Assembly (NCBI RefSeq): GCF_000826525.2
Contig: NZ_LN651331.1
Coordinates: 528,323 to 592,322 of the forward strand
Direction: 5' to 3'
Origin: Mobilicoccus massiliensis
GTDB taxonomy: Bacteria > Actinomycetota > Actinomycetes > Actinomycetales > Dermatophilaceae
Length of the DNA: 64,000 bases
Under the pieces are notes generated by a model. The model had not been told where the DNA came from, made no database searches, and saw nothing but the letters and a program-made list of their open reading frames with translations. A program made the translations under genes and the position numbers. This document shows, piece by piece, positions 42,521 to 52,299 of this stretch. Numbering within the stretch: position 1 is the first letter of the stretch; every line of letters begins with the position of its first letter.

Positions 42521-45214
42521 TCAGAGCGCGAGCTGGGGACGCAGTCGCTGCGGGGTCCAGGTGCGTTGTGCGCGAGCGGCGAGGACGGTGACGACGAACG
42601 ATGCGAGGATCCAGGCGAGGAGGGCGAACACCGCCGATCCCACGTGCAGCCCTCCACCCGCGATGAGCGAGCGGAACGCGTTGACGCCGTAGGTGAGCGG
42701 CAGCAGCGGGTGCAGCCACTGGAAGAACGCCGGGGAACTCTCGATGGGATACGTCGCCCCGGCGGCCGAGAGCTGCAGCACGACGATGATGAGCGCCACG
42801 AACCTGCCCTTGGTGCCGAGCGCCGCGACGAGCGCCTGGTTGATCGCGACGAACGCCAGCGACGTGAGGGCCGCCAGAGCGAACAGCGCGGGCAGATGCG
42901 CGACCGTGAGGTGGACCCAGTAGCGGACGACGAGCACCTGCAGAATCGCCTGGCACAAGCCCAACAGGGCCGGCGGCGCGAACCCGGCGAGCGCGACCCG
43001 CCACGACGGTGCGGTCGAGGCGATGGCGCGCCTCGAGATCGGCCGGATGACGAAGAACATGCCCATCGCTCCGACCCACAGGCCGATCGCCATGAAGTAC
43101 GGCGCGAGTCCGTGACCGTACCCGGGGACGGCGTTGAGGCGGCTCACGTCGGCGCGCACCGGGTCGGGGACGACGTCTTCGAGCCGCTCGCGGTCGCTCT
43201 TCGAGTACGACGGCGCCTTCTCGGCACCCTCCTGCAAGCCGTCGGCCAGCTTCTCGGTGTTCGTCGACAGGGTCTTCGAACCCTTCGCGAGTTGGTCGGC
43301 GCCGCCGTCGAGCTTGCTCGCGCCGTCACGGGCGCCATGGGCTCCGGTGGCGAGCTGGTCGGCCCCACCTGCCAGTTGCTGAGCGCCCTGCGCGGCCGAG
43401 CCGGCGCCGTCGGAGAGCGACGTCGCCCCCGAGGCCACCTTGGCCGAGCCGTCGGCCAGTTGGTTCGCCGCCGACGAGGCCCGGTCGATACCGCCGACCA
43501 GTGCCGGCGCGGCGTCCGCGAACCGCTGCAGGCCGCGTGCGAGACGCTCGGCGCCCGTCGCCAACTGGTCGGTGCCGGAGGCGAGGCGGTCGGCACCCGT
43601 CGAAGCGGCCGTGATGCCCTCGGAGAGGGCGGGGATGCCCTGGGCGAGCTTCGTCAGCCCGTCGCGCAAGGGCACCGCGCCCTCGCCGAGCTCCGTCGCT
43701 CCATCGGCGAGCGCGGTCGCACCCGCCGCGTACTTCGCGGCGCCGTCGGCGTACTTCGTGGCAGCGCCGGCGAACTCGCTGGCGCCCTTCGAGAGGGTGT
43801 CTGCGCCCGTGGCGAGGGGCGCCGTGCCGGTGGCCAGCTTCTCTGCGCCGGTGGCGACTTCGCGACTTCCCTCTCGCACCGCGGAGCCCTGCTCGGCGAC
43901 CGCGGCGAGCTGAGCGCAGTACTGCGGGGCCGCCCCCGACTTCTCGCACGACTGCGAGAGCTGTGAGACCGCACCGGTGTACTTCGCGACGCCGTCGGAG
44001 GCATCACGTGCCCCGGTCGAGAGCTCCCGTGTCCCCTGCGCGAGGACGGTCGCTCCGGCGCCGAGCCGATCGGAGGCGTCGGAGAGCTTCTCGGCTCCGG
44101 TCGTGAGCCCGGCCGCGCCCGTCTCGAGAGCCTCCGCTGCCGGAGTCAGCTGCCGACCACCCTCACCGAGCCGGGCGGCGCCGTCGGTGAGCTTCGTGGC
44201 GCCGTCGGCCAAGGCCTTGGTCTGGGCCGGCAGCTGCGTCACCGGTCCCTGGGCCTTCTTCAGCCCGTCACGCAGTTCGGCAGCGCCGTCGGCGAGCTCG
44301 CGGTTACCGGCGGCGAGTCGCGTCGCCCCGGCCTGGAGCTGCCCGATCTGTTCGGGCAGCGCCGAGGCGCCGTTCGACAACTGGCCGAGGCCCTGCGAGA
44401 GCTGCGCGTTGCCGCTCGCGACCTGACCGGCCCCCGAGGCGAGTTGGTCGGCGCCACTGGAGAGGCGTCCCACGCCGCCCGCGAGGTCACCGGTGCCGGC
44501 GGCGAGACGGTCGGCACCGGAGGCGAGGTCGGTCAGCCCGACGGTGAGTCGACCGGTGCCGGCGTCGAGCTCGCTCGCGCCGTTCGCGAGCTTCTTCGAG
44601 CCGTCGGCGAGCTTGCCGGCACCGTCGCCGGCCTCGGTGAGGTTCTTCTTCACCGAGTTCAGTCCGAGGTAGACCTTGTCGAGGTACTGCGCACTAAGGC
44701 TGTCGCCCACCTCCGAGGCGACGACGCGGCCGATCGTCGCGGCGATGTTGCCGGACAGGTAGCTCACGGCGTCGTTGGTCTGCAGATCCATCGTGGCCGC
44801 TCGCACGGTCTTGGCGTCCTGCGTCGAGACCGCGGCGGCCGAGAAGCCCTTCGGGATCGTCAGGACGGCGTAGTACGTGCCGTCCTCGAGCCCCGCCCGC
44901 GCCTTCTCGGCGTCGGTGAGTTCCCAGTTCATGTTCTGGGGGTCGTCGCTCGTCGTCAGCCGCCCCGCCACGAGACGACCGACCATCACCGGTTGCTTCT
45001 TGCCCTTCGAGTCGGTGATCTCGACCATCTCGTCCTGGTTGACGACCGCGGCACGCATGCCGTCGAGGTGCGTCGTCACGTCGCGGTTGGCCCACACGAG
45101 CAGACCGCCGTAGAGGCTCGGCACGACCATGATCGCCACGAGCACGATGCGGCTGAACCACCCGCCGGTGAAACGGGCGAGCTCGGAGCTGCTGAGCGAG
45201 GGGAGCAGAGGCAT
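42521..45214 (-). CDS. YhgE/Pip family membrane protein with long heptad-repeat stalk
   Basis: An 897-residue protein. One membrane helix near the N-terminus (about 20-42) and a family-typical extracytoplasmic lobe (to about 190) come first. Then about 465 residues (195-660) are built of seven-residue repeats of the form GADxLAx/GAxxLxx, predicted to be a very long helical stalk. The stalk contains a Cys pair (Cys423, Cys433) that could form a disulfide. The C-terminal part has five hydrophobic segments (about 705-725, 740-765, 775-798, 805-822, 860-880), resembling an ABC-2-type permease. Pip-family members include phage-receptor and type VII secretion proteins (YueB/EsaA). Its ATG overlaps the preceding MMPL-ATPase stop (TGATG), so the two are coupled. 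Regulation probably comes from the upstream TetR operators. Confidence 0.85.
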   Translation of the reverse strand: MPLLPSLSSSELARFTGGWFSRIVLVAIMVVPSLYGGLLVWANRDVTTHLDGMRAAVVNQDEMVEITDSKGKKQPVMVGRLVAGRLTTSDDPQNMNWELTDAEKARAGLEDGTYYAVLTIPKGFSAAAVSTQDAKTVRAATMDLQTNDAVSYLSGNIAATIGRVVASEVGDSLSAQYLDKVYLGLNSVKKNLTEAGDGAGKLADGSKKLANGASELDAGTGRLTVGLTDLASGADRLAAGTGDLAGGVGRLSSGADQLASGAGQVASGNAQLSQGLGQLSNGASALPEQIGQLQAGATRLAAGNRELADGAAELRDGLKKAQGPVTQLPAQTKALADGATKLTDGAARLGEGGRQLTPAAEALETGAAGLTTGAEKLSDASDRLGAGATVLAQGTRELSTGARDASDGVAKYTGAVSQLSQSCEKSGAAPQYCAQLAAVAEQGSAVREGSREVATGAEKLATGTAPLATGADTLSKGASEFAGAATKYADGAAKYAAGATALADGATELGEGAVPLRDGLTKLAQGIPALSEGITAASTGADRLASGTDQLATGAERLARGLQRFADAAPALVGGIDRASSAANQLADGSAKVASGATSLSDGAGSAAQGAQQLAGGADQLATGAHGARDGASKLDGGADQLAKGSKTLSTNTEKLADGLQEGAEKAPSYSKSDRERLEDVVPDPVRADVSRLNAVPGYGHGLAPYFMAIGLWVGAMGMFFVIRPISRRAIASTAPSWRVALAGFAPPALLGLCQAILQVLVVRYWVHLTVAHLPALFALAALTSLAFVAINQALVAALGTKGRFVALIIVVLQLSAAGATYPIESSPAFFQWLHPLLPLTYGVNAFRSLIAGGGLHVGSAVFALLAWILASFVVTVLAARAQRTWTPQRLRPQLAL

Positions 45215-48200
45215 CAGCGGGTCACCTTCGCGTATCCGTCGTGGTCGTCGTGTCCGTCATCGCCGTATCCGTCATCGCCGTCGTATCCGACGTGGCCGTC
45301 ATGTCCGTCATGGCCGTCGCGGTCAGCGTGGTGGTCGTCAGCGTGGTGGTCGTCGGAGCCTCCGTCGCGGCCGCCATCGTCGCCGTGATGAGCGTGATCA
45401 CCCCGCCCACCACCGGCCGGACGATCGTCGATCGCTTCCCCGGGGCCGGCACCGGCGACGGTGAACGAGCTGCGGTGACCGAGGTCGAGGGTCACGATCG
45501 ACACGTTCTCCAGGGGCACTCCGGCGAGTCGGGCCGGCGCGGCCGGATCGACGGGCGCGGTCGTCGCACCGATCACGGAGACGACGCGACCCGCCTCACG
45601 CTCGGTGCGCAGCAGGTGTCCGACGGCCGTCATGACGGCGAGTCGGTCGGCATCGGAGCGCAGTTCGCCGTTCTCGTCGATGACGAGCACCCGTGGGCGC
45701 TCGACGAGGGCGAGCACGATGCCGAAGAGCTCGCGCTCGACGCCGTTGAGGTCGCCGACGACCCAGCGCGGATCGATCTCGGTGCGCGGCACGGAGGAAC
45801 CCTTGACGCCCTTGGCCGCGACGAGCGCTGCCGTGTACTGGTCCATGACCCGCTCGACGTCGCGGGATCGCGCCCAGGGCATGAGGGTGCGCGCCGAGAG
45901 CCGCTCGGCGATGTGGTCACCCAGCTTGAGGGAGTTGTCGAGGTCGTTGACGTTGCGCATCTCCGCGAGGGCGACTCGGCGTTGGACGGCCGCCGCCTGC
46001 TCGGGCAGCACGTATCCGGCGATCTCGATGCATCCCGACTCGAACGGCATGCGGCCGGCGAGGGTGAGGAGCACCGACGTCTTTCCGGTGCCGTCGGGCC
46101 CCTGCACGATGCAGACCCCCGGCTCGTCCACGTGCAGGTCGAGGCCGGTGACGACCGGCCCACGCGCTCCGCGGATGTCGACGTCGCGGGCCTCGACGAC
46201 GCGGCGGGGATGCTCTCGGATCTGCCGGGATCGCTCGAGGTGATCGTGCACGATTCCGCCTTCGACGTCGACGTGCGGGAGGATCCGGTCGAGCGCCGCC
46301 GGGATCATCCAGGTGTGACGACCGCACAACGTGAGAGCCGCGGGGATGAAGATCATCCGGATCACGACCGCGTCGAGCAGCACGCCGATGGCAAGGCCGG
46401 CGGCGATCGGCTTGAGGTTGGCGTCGGCGTGCGGGACGAACGAGGCGAAGACCGCGACCATGATTGCGGCGGCCGCGGCGACGACCGGGCCGGAGGAGAC
46501 GAAGCCGTCGACGACGGCCGCCTTGGGTGAGGCGCCACGCACGTAGGCCTCGCGCATCCGGGAGACGAGGAAGACCTGGTAGTCCATCGCGAGGCCGAAG
46601 AGCACGCCCATGACGATGATCGGCATGAAGCTGATGACTGGCCCGAGACGGGTCACGCCGAGCATGTCGGCCAGCCACCCGTGCTCGAAGACGAGGGTGA
46701 TGACGCCGAATGCGGCCGTCGTCGAGAGTACGAAGCCGATCGTCGCGGTGAGCGGCACGAGCAGCGACCGGAAGACGATGGTCAGCAGCAGCAACGACAG
46801 CCCCATGACCACCGCCGCGAAGGGCAGGACGGCCTTGCCGAGCCGGTCGGAGACGTCGATCTGAATGGCGGTGTGGCCGGTGACCGCGAGCGTGGTGTCG
46901 TACTTCTCGCCCAGGCCAGGCAGGCGACCGCGCAGGTCTCGCACGAGATCGGCGGTGCGCGCGTCCATCGGGCCGGTCTCGGGCACCGCGACGATCACGC
47001 CGGTGTCGGCGTCGCGGTTGGGGGTGGCGAGCGAGATGCGTTCGATGCCCGACACCGCGGCGATCTCCCTCTCGAGGTCGTCCACGAGGCCGACGGGGTC
47101 GTCGGAGCCGATGATGTCGGCCGTGACGAGCAGCGGGCCGTTCGCGCCCGGGCCGAAGTGCTCGCCGATGAGGTCGTAGGCACGGCGGGGAGACTCCGTC
47201 GTCGGTATCGAGCCGTTGTCGGGCAGCGCCAGGCGTAGACCCAGCGCCGGAACGGCGAGTGCGACGAGACCGGCCGTGACGACGACGAGGGTCAACGCGG
47301 GGACCGCGGTGACGGTCCGGGCCCACGCACCCGCCCAGCCGCCCGTCCTCCGCCGGGCCGATGCCCCCGGACCGGTGTCGTCGTCGGCGTTCGTGCGCCG
47401 GCCCGGCTCGTGCGCGGCCGACTCGCCGTCCGCGCCCGGACCGGACTCGGGCTCGTCGTCGTGTTCGTCGTCGTGTTCGGGCTGGTCAGTCTGTGTATGG
47501 ACGTCGCCCTCACGCGACGGCTCCTGAGCGTCGGCCCCTGCTCGAGCGACGGCATCGCGACTCCGGCGGTCGTCCTCGCGGAGGCGCCCGCGGCCCCGCG
47601 TGCGCGGTGCGAGTCGCTCTCCCAGGAGGCTCATGAGCGCGGGCAGGAGGGTGATCGACGCGAGGACGGCGACCGCCACCCCGCAGGACCCCGCGATGCC
47701 CATCGCCGTGAGGAACGGCAGGCCGGCGAGGCCGAGACCCAACAGGGCGATGAGCACGGTGAGGCCCGCGAAGACGACGGCGCCACCGGCCGTGGCGTTC
47801 GACAGTGCGACCGACTCCTCCAGGTCGAGGCCGTCCGCGAGCTGTTCGCGATGACGAGCGAGGATGAAGAGCGCGTAGTCGATCCCCACCGCGATGCCGA
47901 TCATCAGCGCGAGCAACGGCGCTGTTCCCGGGATCTTCGCGACCGACGTGGCGATCATGACGAGACAGGCCGTCGTGCCGGCTCCGGCCAGCGCGGAGAC
48001 GACGGGCAGGGCTGCGGCGCGCACCGAACGGAACGTCAGGTACAGCACGAACATCGCGATCCCGAGGCCCACGGCCTCCATCCACGAGATCGTCGGCGGC
48101 GGCAGCATGAAGACGCCCCCACCCACCTCGGCGACGTACCCCGCGCGACGCAGTGGATCGACCGAGTTCAGCAACTTCTGCCGAGTCGCCTCGTCGACGT

Positions 48201-48609
48201 CGGTGGCCTGCGCGTCGAGCTGGGCCTCGACGAGCACCGCGCGTCGGTCGTCGCTCACGGCGACGTTCTCGTCGTAGGGGTCGGCGACCTCAGACACGCC
48301 GTCGATACGCTCGAGACGCTGCACGAGGGCGGCGACATCGTGGCGTGTGCGCTCGTCCGCCGCGGTGCGCCCTTCGGGCACCTGGACGACGACCTGCGCT
48401 CCGGCGCCGCTCAACTCGGGGAATCGGCCTTCGAGATCGTCGATCGCCTCCTGCCCTTGCGACCCCGGAACGGTGTAGACCTCGCTCGTGCCCTTGGACA
48501 GCAGGCCCATTCCGGCGCCCAGCAGGATGAGTAGCACGAACCACACGCCGAGCACCTGCTTGGCGTGTCGGTGGCAATAGCTCCCCAGGTCGAACAGTGA
48601 CGACGACAC
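45214..48609 (-). CDS. MMPL/RND exporter fused to a degenerate ABC ATPase and a His/Asp-rich tail
   Basis: One uninterrupted 1,131-residue frame. Residues 1-780 are an MMPL transporter with about twelve helices, two extracytoplasmic loops and the proton-relay motifs GIDYALFILARHRE (Asp244) and AMDYQVFLVSRMRE (Asp676); an acidic cytoplasmic insert spans 335-425. Residues 804-1047 resemble an ABC ATPase: Walker A GPDGTGKTS (837-845), signature-like DLNGVERE (953-960) and Walker B VLVIDE (974-979). However, the Q-loop Gln and switch His are not recognisable. Residues 1065-1131 are almost only His, Asp and Gly. The GTG at 48609 has AGGAG upstream. It is likely to export lipid or hydrophobic compounds together with the YhgE partner; the substrate is unknown. 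Confidence 0.85.
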   Translation of the reverse strand: MSSSLFDLGSYCHRHAKQVLGVWFVLLILLGAGMGLLSKGTSEVYTVPGSQGQEAIDDLEGRFPELSGAGAQVVVQVPEGRTAADERTRHDVAALVQRLERIDGVSEVADPYDENVAVSDDRRAVLVEAQLDAQATDVDEATRQKLLNSVDPLRRAGYVAEVGGGVFMLPPPTISWMEAVGLGIAMFVLYLTFRSVRAAALPVVSALAGAGTTACLVMIATSVAKIPGTAPLLALMIGIAVGIDYALFILARHREQLADGLDLEESVALSNATAGGAVVFAGLTVLIALLGLGLAGLPFLTAMGIAGSCGVAVAVLASITLLPALMSLLGERLAPRTRGRGRLREDDRRSRDAVARAGADAQEPSREGDVHTQTDQPEHDDEHDDEPESGPGADGESAAHEPGRRTNADDDTGPGASARRRTGGWAGAWARTVTAVPALTLVVVTAGLVALAVPALGLRLALPDNGSIPTTESPRRAYDLIGEHFGPGANGPLLVTADIIGSDDPVGLVDDLEREIAAVSGIERISLATPNRDADTGVIVAVPETGPMDARTADLVRDLRGRLPGLGEKYDTTLAVTGHTAIQIDVSDRLGKAVLPFAAVVMGLSLLLLTIVFRSLLVPLTATIGFVLSTTAAFGVITLVFEHGWLADMLGVTRLGPVISFMPIIVMGVLFGLAMDYQVFLVSRMREAYVRGASPKAAVVDGFVSSGPVVAAAAAIMVAVFASFVPHADANLKPIAAGLAIGVLLDAVVIRMIFIPAALTLCGRHTWMIPAALDRILPHVDVEGGIVHDHLERSRQIREHPRRVVEARDVDIRGARGPVVTGLDLHVDEPGVCIVQGPDGTGKTSVLLTLAGRMPFESGCIEIAGYVLPEQAAAVQRRVALAEMRNVNDLDNSLKLGDHIAERLSARTLMPWARSRDVERVMDQYTAALVAAKGVKGSSVPRTEIDPRWVVGDLNGVERELFGIVLALVERPRVLVIDENGELRSDADRLAVMTAVGHLLRTEREAGRVVSVIGATTAPVDPAAPARLAGVPLENVSIVTLDLGHRSSFTVAGAGPGEAIDDRPAGGGRGDHAHHGDDGGRDGGSDDHHADDHHADRDGHDGHDGHVGYDGDDGYGDDGHDDHDGYAKVTR

Positions 48610-48631: not shown

Positions 48632-48649
48632 GGATACGAGTGTGTATCC
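48632..48649. promoter_or_regulatory. Predicted TetR operator 1
   Basis: GGATAC-GAGTGT-GTATCC is an 18-bp palindrome with perfect 6-bp arms, shared in form with the site at 48666. It lies just downstream of the predicted transcription start of the leftward MMPL gene. Confidence 0.65.
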
Positions 48650-48657
48650 GAAACGGA

Positions 48658-48687
48658 ACTGTACTGGATACGGTTGTGTATCGTGAA
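48658..48687 (-). promoter_or_regulatory. Predicted promoter of the MMPL-YhgE operon
   Basis: Minus strand: TTCACG (48687-48682) and TACAGT (48663-48658) are separated by 18 nt. Operator 2 fills the spacer and touches the -35, and operator 1 covers the start region, an arrangement suited to repression. Confidence 0.45.
48666..48683. promoter_or_regulatory. Predicted TetR operator 2
   Basis: GGATAC-GGTTGT-GTATCG differs from operator 1 at only three of 18 positions and is 34 bp from it, about three helical turns. It lies in the spacer of the leftward promoter and upstream of the tetR start at 48743. Confidence 0.65.
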
Positions 48688-48742: not shown

Positions 48743-49435
48743 GTGACACAGTCGAATTCGGGCCTGCCGGCCTCATCGTCGCAGGACGACGTCGCGATCT
48801 CCACGCGTCGACTCGCGACTCGCACCCGCCTCCTCGACGCGACGCGAGAGGTCGTCGCCGCCAAAGGAGTGCACGGCGCGAGCGTCGAGGAGATCTGCGA
48901 GGTCGCGGGGTTCACGCGCGGTGCCTTCTACTCCAACTACGCCGACAAGGACGAGATCCTGCTGGACCTCGTGCGGCGCGATCAGAGCCGGATCTTCGAC
49001 CCCGTCGCTCTCGGGGGCGAGGAGGAAGGGATCGATGCGATGGTCGAGGCCGTGCTGGCCGCCGTCGCACAACCCGACCTCGACTACTTCCTCGTGCACG
49101 CGGAGATCGCCCTGCACGGTATCCGCACGCCGGAGTTCGCCCCGGTGGCGACGGCCACCGACGGAGCCATGCGTGACCGGATCCGCACGATCCTCGCCGC
49201 CGGCCTGGCGCGACTGGACCGTGAACCCCTCGTGCATCTGGACGATCTCGCGGAGTGCGTGAGCGCGGTCAACGAGCGGTCGATCCGGCACGCCGCCCTC
49301 GCCGGTGAGCGCGACCTGCGGCGGATGGCCCGCGCCACGCTCCCCCACGTGCTGCGGGGACTCACCCGCCCCCGACAGCACGCGCATTCGCGGGATGACG
49401 GCGACGCCGACCGCACCGTGACCGACGACGCCTGA
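48743..49435 (+). CDS. TetR family transcriptional regulator
   Basis: A 230-residue repressor-type protein. The N-terminal helix-turn-helix is LLDATREVVAAKGVHGASVE followed by EICEVAGFTRGAFYSNYADKDEIL (about residues 30-75), the canonical TetR pattern. The C-terminal ligand-binding half is helical and not specific. GTG 48743 is the start. It is divergent from the MMPL-ATPase/YhgE operon, with two matching palindromes in the 133-bp gap, so it most likely represses that operon and itself and is released by an exported compound or lipid. The C-terminus has a short His/Asp/Arg-rich tail (RPRQHAHSRDDGDADR). Confidence 0.88.
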   Translation: MTQSNSGLPASSSQDDVAISTRRLATRTRLLDATREVVAAKGVHGASVEEICEVAGFTRGAFYSNYADKDEILLDLVRRDQSRIFDPVALGGEEEGIDAMVEAVLAAVAQPDLDYFLVHAEIALHGIRTPEFAPVATATDGAMRDRIRTILAAGLARLDREPLVHLDDLAECVSAVNERSIRHAALAGERDLRRMARATLPHVLRGLTRPRQHAHSRDDGDADRTVTDDA

Positions 49436-50643: not shown

Positions 50644-52092
50644 CTACCGGATCGCGAAGCGGATGCGGCGGGTCATGATGTCGGCCTTCGTCAACCGAAC
50701 CCGCACCCGGGCTCCCGGTTCGGCGGTGCCGTCGGCGACACCCACCACCGCGGGGTCGGCGAGCTGGACGACGAGACCCTTCTCGCCGCGGTCCTCGACG
50801 ACGACCGCGTCGAACGTCTCGCCGACGCGGCGGGTGAGTTCGGCGGCCTCGGCGGCGTCGGTGCACGCCCGGGCGACCCCCGACGCGCGGCGGTCTCCGT
50901 CCTTCATGGCCTCCGGCAGACCCGGCAGTGCCTCGCGCACCCACGCCGGCACCTCCTCGCCGGCGTCGAGTGCGGCGCACACCGCGAGCCCGAACCGGTC
51001 GACCAGCCGCCGCAGCGGGGCCGTGACGTGCGCGTACGGCGCCGCGATCGCGGCGTGCTCGGTCTGTTCGGGCGCCTCGCCGTCGACGGCGGTGTACCCG
51101 GCGCCGCGAAAGAGACTCGTCGCCGCGTGGAGCAGCGCGAGGTGGCGCGGGTCGTCCCCGTCGAGGGTGCGCAGGAACGCGCCGTACGGCTGATCCGCCG
51201 GCCAGTCGAGCCCGAGGGCGCGGGCCTGCAGCCGAAACCGGCGCACGTCCTTCTCGCTCGGGGGCGGCATCGTGCGCAGGATGCCCACGCCCCCGGCGAG
51301 CATCATGTCGGCGGCGGCCATGCCGGTGAGCAGGGAGATCTGCGCGTTGTGGTCCTCCGCGGGCACGACGGGCCGGAACTCGAGGCGGTAGGAGCCGTCC
51401 TCCTCCCGGACGATCTCCTGATCGGGCATCGGCAGGCTCGCGCCACCCCGCCGCAGCTCGGCCTCCGCACGAAGTTCACCGATGCGCGCGAGCAGCGGCA
51501 GTTGCGCGTCGGTCTCCGGCGTCACCCCGCTGCCGTGGCCGTCGAGCAGCTCCTGGACCTGCCCGTAGTCGTAACGGGCGACGCTGCGCACGCGCATGCG
51601 GGTGACGTGGGCCTTCGTGAGCTCACCACGCGCGTCGAGCCGCAGGTCCCAGACGTACGCGGCGCGTTCGACACCGGGAAGGAGGCTGCAGGCCCCTTCG
51701 CTGAGCACCTGCGGATGCAGGGGGGCCTTCTCGTCGGGCAGATAGATCGTCTGCCCGCGGCGGCGCGCCTCGGCGTCGATCGCGCCGCCGGGCCTCACCG
51801 CGTCGGAGAGGTCGGCGATCGCGTAGCGGATGCGAAAGCCCTCCCCCTCGGAGGCGAGGTGCATGGCCTGGTCGAGGTCCATGCTGCCGGGCGGGTCGAT
51901 CGTGAGGAACGGCAGCTCGGTCGCGTCGGGTAGCGCCGCGGCCACGGCGTCGGCGCGTTCGGCCGCGGCCTGCGCCTCGGTGAGGACGTCGGGCGTGAAC
52001 TCCCCCGGTACGTCGAACTCGGCACGGATCGCGTCGAACGCCGCCTCGAGGGTGGCGTCCGCGGTGGCCAGGCGATAACTCGGCAGCGGCAT
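50644..52092 (-). CDS. RNase II/RNB-domain exoribonuclease-like protein
   Basis: A 482-residue protein with the RNB catalytic domain of RNase II/R. The acidic active-site motif is LTIDPPGSMDLDQAM, followed by YAIADLSDAVRPGGAIDAEARRRGQTIYLPD, LLTGMAAADMMLAGGVGILR and APYAHVTAPLRRLVDRFG. It is shorter than RNase R (about 700-800): there are no cold-shock domains at the N-terminus, and the C-terminal about 60 residues look like a short S1-like barrel (VVVEDRGEKGLVVQLADPAVVGV). This short form is common in actinobacteria. The ATG at 52092 (MPLPSYRLATAD) is chosen. It is a 3'-5' RNA decay enzyme by family. Confidence 0.87.
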   Translation of the reverse strand: MPLPSYRLATADATLEAAFDAIRAEFDVPGEFTPDVLTEAQAAAERADAVAAALPDATELPFLTIDPPGSMDLDQAMHLASEGEGFRIRYAIADLSDAVRPGGAIDAEARRRGQTIYLPDEKAPLHPQVLSEGACSLLPGVERAAYVWDLRLDARGELTKAHVTRMRVRSVARYDYGQVQELLDGHGSGVTPETDAQLPLLARIGELRAEAELRRGGASLPMPDQEIVREEDGSYRLEFRPVVPAEDHNAQISLLTGMAAADMMLAGGVGILRTMPPPSEKDVRRFRLQARALGLDWPADQPYGAFLRTLDGDDPRHLALLHAATSLFRGAGYTAVDGEAPEQTEHAAIAAPYAHVTAPLRRLVDRFGLAVCAALDAGEEVPAWVREALPGLPEAMKDGDRRASGVARACTDAAEAAELTRRVGETFDAVVVEDRGEKGLVVQLADPAVVGVADGTAEPGARVRVRLTKADIMTRRIRFAIR

Positions 52093-52299
52093 GGGGCCAA
52101 GGCTACGGAACCCGAGGTCAGGACACGAGACGATCGTCGGGCCGCGACGCTTGCGCTGGCCCTCCCTCACCGCCGGAGAACCCGGGACAGAACCCGTCGA
52201 GCACCTCCCCCGACGCGGTCCCCGCTGCGACGTCGAGCACGGAGGCCGGTACCTCGGAGCCGGCGCGACAGCCGAAGAACGTCTGCCCCGGCGCCGGCG

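Follow-up and report, generated by a model that had tools for sequence, protein, structure and literature searches.

Within a 64,000-nucleotide stretch of the Mobilicoccus massiliensis genome (NCBI RefSeq assembly GCF_000826525.2, contig NZ_LN651331.1, positions 528,323 to 592,322; hereafter the window, in whose coordinates positions are given), one open reading frame (ORF) on the minus strand joins an MMPL transporter of the RND superfamily to an ABC-type nucleotide-binding domain (NBD). This frame (48609..45214; GTG start at 48609, stop at 45216-45214) encodes 1131 amino acids (aa) with no internal stop across its 1131 codons, and its stop overlaps the start of a yhgE/Pip gene in the sequence TGATG. 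A preliminary description of this DNA had reported a single frame with both domains, both Asp relay motifs and Walker A and B, leaving the strand unstated, and had noted the overlap with a YhgE/Pip gene whose product ends in helices resembling an ABC-2 permease; our analysis bears out all of these points. The MMPL part (residues 1-785; 46255..48609, minus strand, as are all features of the two genes) is matched by PF03176 (E 2.3e-69) in two stretches that correspond to its two halves, and sequence comparison places an Asp-Tyr pair in each of transmembrane helices (TM) 4 and 10, D244-Y245 (47875..47880) and D676-Y677 (46579..46584), whose proton-relay role is assigned by homology to MmpL3.

The C-terminal part is an ABC-type NBD with partly degenerate catalytic motifs (residues ~801-1042; 45484..46209), matched by ABC_tran (PF00005) over residues 822-979 (E 7.2e-7; 30.3 bits, where the gathering score is 25). 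Alignment locates Walker A (GPDGTGKT, residues 837-844; 46078..46101), Walker B (VLVIDE, residues 974-979; 45673..45690) and a degenerate signature region (GDLNGVEREL; 45727..45756), in which the LNGVE singled out earlier occupies residues 954-958. The preliminary description had recognised neither a switch histidine nor a Q-loop glutamine. The first observation stands, as T1017 lies in the switch-His column. At the Q-loop, a poorly aligned place, the window NBD shows E883-M884 and no Gln, but ordinary ATPases also lack Gln in that column, and a phmmer alignment pairs M884 with the Gln of ABCA3. An AlphaFold2 model of the window-type NBD (seven sequences; predicted local distance difference test score, pLDDT, 81.7) superimposed on the ABC ATPase 4yer_B in VIA-align with Z 21.6, a root-mean-square deviation (rmsd) of 2.6 and 213 aligned residues; as modelled, the fused C-terminal domain has the ABC NBD fold.

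The partner gene (42521..45214) encodes a YhgE/Pip protein of 897 aa that contains a long region of Leu-x-x-Gly heptads and ends in helices like those of an ABC-2 permease. It is matched by TIGR03061 (E 9e-38, 129.5 bits; cut-off 96.15), by TIGR03062 (E 4.2e-61, 206.2 bits; cut-off 102.2), by TIGR03057 in 20 stretches and by ABC2_membrane_3 (PF12698, E 2.1e-22).

Recurrence of the fusion and pairing with YhgE/Pip

Such a fusion might arise from a frameshift or missed stop around residues 780-804, an objection raised in the preliminary description itself. We rejected an assembly artefact of the window genome because 43 fused proteins from other genomes show the same join, and a D-x-E-G motif opens the C-terminal part in all of them as in the window; since these proteins were chosen as fused, they demonstrate recurrence and give no rate. 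A search with the full window protein gave, in 20 of 97 genomes (its own included), matches that span the junction, starting in the MMPL part and extending at least to residue 878. At the level of the order, a profile of the C-terminal domain matched 147 of 248 genomes at E 1e-12 or better, and a hand count (match from profile position 1, in an open frame of 880 aa or more) found the fused form in at least 74 of the 248 (at least 76 rows). A window-type fused frame occurs in 10/186 genomes of the window's family, with a standalone match in one more, and a class sample of 394 genomes yielded 8 further window-type fused frames, all from f35 and f45, two families other than the window's own. G002, a genus mate with 89% completeness, gave no match at E 1e-20, and a scan of named genomes returned 6 loci, one of which (L113, 24% identity) is not convincing.

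The gene order recurs as well: yhgE follows the fusion in 43 of 44 fused loci, the 44th (L174) stopping at a contig end. When the class was searched with the NBD, many matches fell in frames of ~230-500 aa, that is, in standalone proteins, and in the surroundings fetched these standalone NBDs lie directly upstream of a yhgE/Pip gene, with no match to the MMPL profile in their flanks (a few kilobases on each side). Because the standalone relatives adjoin yhgE and their flanks gave no MMPL match, the NBD appears to go with YhgE/Pip. Standalone and fused loci had been picked partly by their match to the window's clade, so that percentages among them are not unbiased for the class; a less biased census, albeit with an NBD profile built from the same loci, started from YhgE. 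Among 148 class genomes, 31 held 35 places with TIGR03062 above cut-off, and 34 of these carried an NBD-type ORF. Fused and split forms, whose count the preliminary description had proposed, thus number 4 and 30, respectively, three of the latter being weak matches (E 2e-8 to 5e-10), and one place (L137) has neither. The window's own genome holds a second pair outside the window (L114:3850-6982; C5, ~629-632 kb), consisting of a standalone NBD (PF00005 E 1.4e-11) and a very divergent YhgE (end branch of 1.28 in the YhgE tree described below). Together these arrangements make a strong circumstantial case that the NBD works with YhgE. The standalone NBDs look like an atypical family of ABC ATPases, of which we met no description.

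A tree of YhgE, built without NBD or MMPL columns, comprised 64 rows: 24 hand-chosen standalone loci and 40 of the 44 fused ones (L039, L047, L056 and L174 are absent, their yhgE being cut off or lacking a C-terminal match). A single branch separates fused from standalone loci with support of 100/99, and a quick tree of 75 rows (54 standalone) agrees. The tree is unrooted, and placing the standalone form first rests on the likeness of the NBD to ABC ATPases; if the standalone NBD is indeed ancestral, there was one fusion, followed by further decay.

Opposite motif losses in pump and NBD

The 44 fused proteins comprise 18 of the window type and a second group of 26. Walker A is present in 18/18 window-type fusions and in a single member (L055) of the second group, while both Asp-Tyr pairs are present in 17/18 and 26/26, respectively, or 43/44 overall. 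The second, Walker-less group forms one clade of the YhgE tree (100/99), nested among the window-type fusions, and its C-terminal part is shorter (178-282 residues versus 258-441). A model of that part (13 sequences; pLDDT 83.8) still superimposed on 4yer_A with Z 16.0, rmsd 3.1 and 157 aligned residues; by our reading of separate alignments, this predicted ABC NBD is missing much of its helical subdomain.

This derived clade raises the question of whether its C-terminal domain is a relic, an NBD attached by the fusion that has no remaining function and has simply been decaying. Mean pairwise identity in the second group (13 proteins) falls from 52% in MMPL to 34% in the first half of the NBD and 20% in the rest, as such decay would predict, and the presence of the domain in every fused protein proves nothing against it, because the searches required the domain. 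However, the fold is still predicted with the confidence given above, and the D-x-E-G motif, a Gly-Arg after the lost Walker A and a Leu-Pro stretch are kept in most of the 44 proteins; we therefore regard a mere relic as very unlikely.

The state of the catalytic motifs was read from an alignment that combined 11 fused NBDs of the window type with 52 standalone ones and 3 ordinary ABC ATPases, one of the latter from the stretch L149. It excludes L115 and L126 (which duplicate the regions L096 and L101), both pieces of the frame-broken L107 NBD, and L137, in which no NBD was found. The Walker A and Walker B columns are clear and the signature and switch columns less so. The Walker A lysine is present in 11/11 fused and 3/3 ordinary proteins but in only 8 of the 52 standalone NBDs, 36 of which have Arg instead. 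The Walker B Asp is kept in 11/11 fused, 39/52 standalone and 3/3 ordinary sequences, and the Glu that should follow it in 4/11 fused (the window among them), 0/52 standalone and 3/3 ordinary ones. At the signature, LSGGQ or LSGGE was found in none of the 63 family NBDs and in one of the three ordinary ATPases; the switch-column His occurs in 1/11 fused (L041), 0/52 standalone (two have His one place on) and 2/3 ordinary sequences. As a separate observation, Asp-Asp is common at Walker B in standalone NBDs beside yhgE (e.g. L090, L096 and L117).

We put the probability of the following interpretation at about 0.5: the locus would encode a TetR-regulated, two-gene envelope export machine in which a proton-driven MMPL exporter is docked to YhgE via a largely inactive ABC domain. 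By homology to MmpL3, the MMPL part would be the engine, powered by the proton gradient via both Asp-Tyr pairs and moving a lipid-like or amphiphilic substrate. The fused NBD is kin to what would be the dedicated cytoplasmic NBD of YhgE/Pip and, because its catalytic motifs are eroded, most likely does not perform classical ABC ATP hydrolysis; it would dock on the cytoplasmic face of YhgE, so that the pump is covalently tied to YhgE, which may guide or receive the cargo. Nucleotide binding may persist in the window's clade, where the NBD might serve as a clamp for assembly. Docking, energy flow, cargo and direction of transport are the elements of this scheme that we infer.

Several observations weigh against it. 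Two of the three control ATPases also lack LSGGQ at that place and one lacks the switch His, so that these absences count for less than the losses at Walker A, and the argument from the signature does not settle the matter. Walker A and the Walker B Asp-Glu are both retained in the window, L038, L039 and L040, of which L038 comes nearest to the signature with LSGIE; in these four proteins ATPase activity is possible. Erosion is also strong in standalone NBDs without MMPL, and consequently neither fusion nor a take-over by the pump can have caused it. L055 keeps Walker A inside the Walker-less clade, and L137 has a YhgE without a detected NBD. Finally, the protein at L043:6764-10081 has neither Asp-Tyr pair: the helices can otherwise be aligned, but GA and AA take the place of the pairs. 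Its frame is intact and still matches MMPL (E 4.6e-42), and it retains Walker A and the Walker B Asp; this loss of the relay with Walker motifs kept makes a purely proton-driven machine a poor fit. It is a single case, with losses opposite to those of the second group, and possibly represents a pump turned into a scaffold.

A rival account holds that a YhgE ABC exporter is still powered by ATP through this NBD, perhaps slowly, and that the MMPL part was joined to the NBD as a second, proton-driven pump for co-regulation and substrate hand-over. The retention of Walker A throughout the window-type fusions would be expected of a motor, as would the invariant Walker B Asp of their 11 aligned NBDs (with Asp-Glu in four) and the relay-less L043, and the absence of LSGGQ in two ordinary ATPases removes part of the objection. 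The switch-column His is nevertheless missing from all but one fused and from every standalone NBD, most standalone relatives lack the Walker A lysine, and Walker A is gone in 25 of the 26 derived-clade members, which together make an ATP motor unlikely. The preliminary description had proposed that the ATPase serves the Pip permease: gene order supports the association, but a fully working ATPase is doubtful because LSGGQ is absent from the whole family alignment and the Walker A lysine from 44 of the 52 standalone NBDs.

We frame its other proposal, a nucleotide switch, as follows: the NBD would bind ATP without turning it over, the bound state would gate the MMPL pump or its assembly with YhgE, and this ability would have been lost in the derived clade. 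An invariant Walker A lysine combined with the near-complete absence of the switch His in the window clade is what such a switch would look like, and Leu-Ala-Glu invariably follows that lysine in the 11 aligned window-type NBDs. Against this, the 25 derived-clade members without Walker A keep both pump and YhgE, so the machine does not in general depend on Walker A. We find such a switch rather improbable; within the window's clade, where Walker A is kept in all 18 fusions, it may still operate.

The opposite losses in the derived clade (Walker A gone in 25/26, relay kept in 26/26) and in L043 (the reverse) also invite a broader reading, in which an MMPL pump, a YhgE permease and an ABC NBD share one complex as a dual-engine class and either engine can die. 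We advance it tentatively, as less probable than the interpretation that we prefer; if true, the class would be a series, found in nature, of a transporter switching from one power source to another. The graded series from standalone to fused to Walker-less NBD, along with the relay-less pump, also offers a way to ask how a complex changes or shares its energy source.

Regulation and neighbouring genes

Divergent from the fusion lies a gene for a TetR-family regulator (48743..49435, plus strand; PF00440 E 5.7e-11; start codon not certain), and in 15 of 19 further fused loci a homologue is likewise found next to the fusion. The intervening gap in the window holds a palindromic operator-like site with a GATAC-N6-GTATC core (48632..48649) and, 34 bases on, a second GATAC-N6-GTATC site (48667..48682). 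The whole 64-kb window contains exactly two matches to the relaxed pattern RATAC-N6-GTATY (0.01 expected), both of them in the TetR-MMPL gap. This pattern was found in 12 of 13 window-type loci (L104 lacks it); in the window, L038, L039 and L040, coordinates confirm that it lies in the gap. The pair is likely the operator of the TetR-family regulator.

Beyond the regulator gene lies an RNB-domain gene (50644-52170; PF00773 E 9.2e-48), which stays near the fusion in 5 related loci. A cytochrome P450 gene (40853-42127; PF00067 E 1.1e-13) follows downstream of yhgE; it was rejected as a part of the system, as no match was found in the 20 loci L038-L057 (with flanks of a few kilobases past yhgE). 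The end of the fused protein itself, a His/Asp/Gly-rich tail (45217..45483), had been described as metal-binding-like. A comparison of 11 window-type tails found the His/Asp-rich character in the window alone, and the congener L040 has a long tail that differs from the window's and contains some His; we therefore discarded a metal-binding tail as a conserved functional part.

Relation to known systems

The window pump shares with the MmpL3/MMPL branch an MMPL domain in two stretches and two Asp-Tyr pairs, and differs from it in bearing a C-terminal ABC-type NBD; with the MmpL3 and actII models it scores 164.7 bits of a 1400-bit cut-off and 144.8 of 874.7, respectively. The function of MmpL3 is proton-driven lipid export (PMC11481577). 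As to cargo, exposure of Saccharopolyspora hirsuta to cholesterol raised expression of a YhgE gene (F1721_04135) 3.82-fold and of an MMPL gene (F1721_04140) 3.33-fold; the two have neighbouring tags and are among 28 listed genes, and the authors briefly raise lipid export as a role of the YhgE gene (PMC9782250). A steroid or cholesterol cargo is a lead only, conditional on the MMPL gene F1721_04140 being a fused form.

The preliminary description had put the locus forward as an undescribed system. The fusion turns out to be common in the order, as counted above, and not one of a kind, which weakens the claim; among the matches listed in the open-access literature, we met no description of an MMPL-NBD fusion or of a YhgE-NBD pairing, and in the available text of the papers that name both YhgE and MMPL the two appear as listed genes only. 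The parts are of known kinds, and it is their union that we did not meet among those matches.

ABC-2 type exporters consist of a separate NBD and an ABC-2 permease, as in DrrAB. The family described here resembles them in the predicted fold of its NBD (Z 21.6, as above) and in the placement of the standalone NBD gene directly before a gene for an ABC-2-like membrane protein. It departs from them in its eroded motifs, most standalone members being without the Walker A lysine, and in that the window NBD is part of another transporter.

With the YhgE/Pip family (Lactococcus PIP, Enterococcus PIP-EF, EsaA/YueB) the partner protein has in common that both YhgE/Pip models score above cut-off. The Enterococcus protein is needed for phage DNA entry, its natural function is not known, and the available text of that account differs from the situation here in that an NBD or MMPL partner is not seen in it (PMC4999554). 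In a survey of transport proteins, PIP was grouped close to the ABC-2 superfamily (PMC3924187), a placement that agrees with our reading. For actinobacterial YhgE/Pip, a member of a family known mainly through phage infection, the pairing thus provides a likely partner family and an export role that can be tested.

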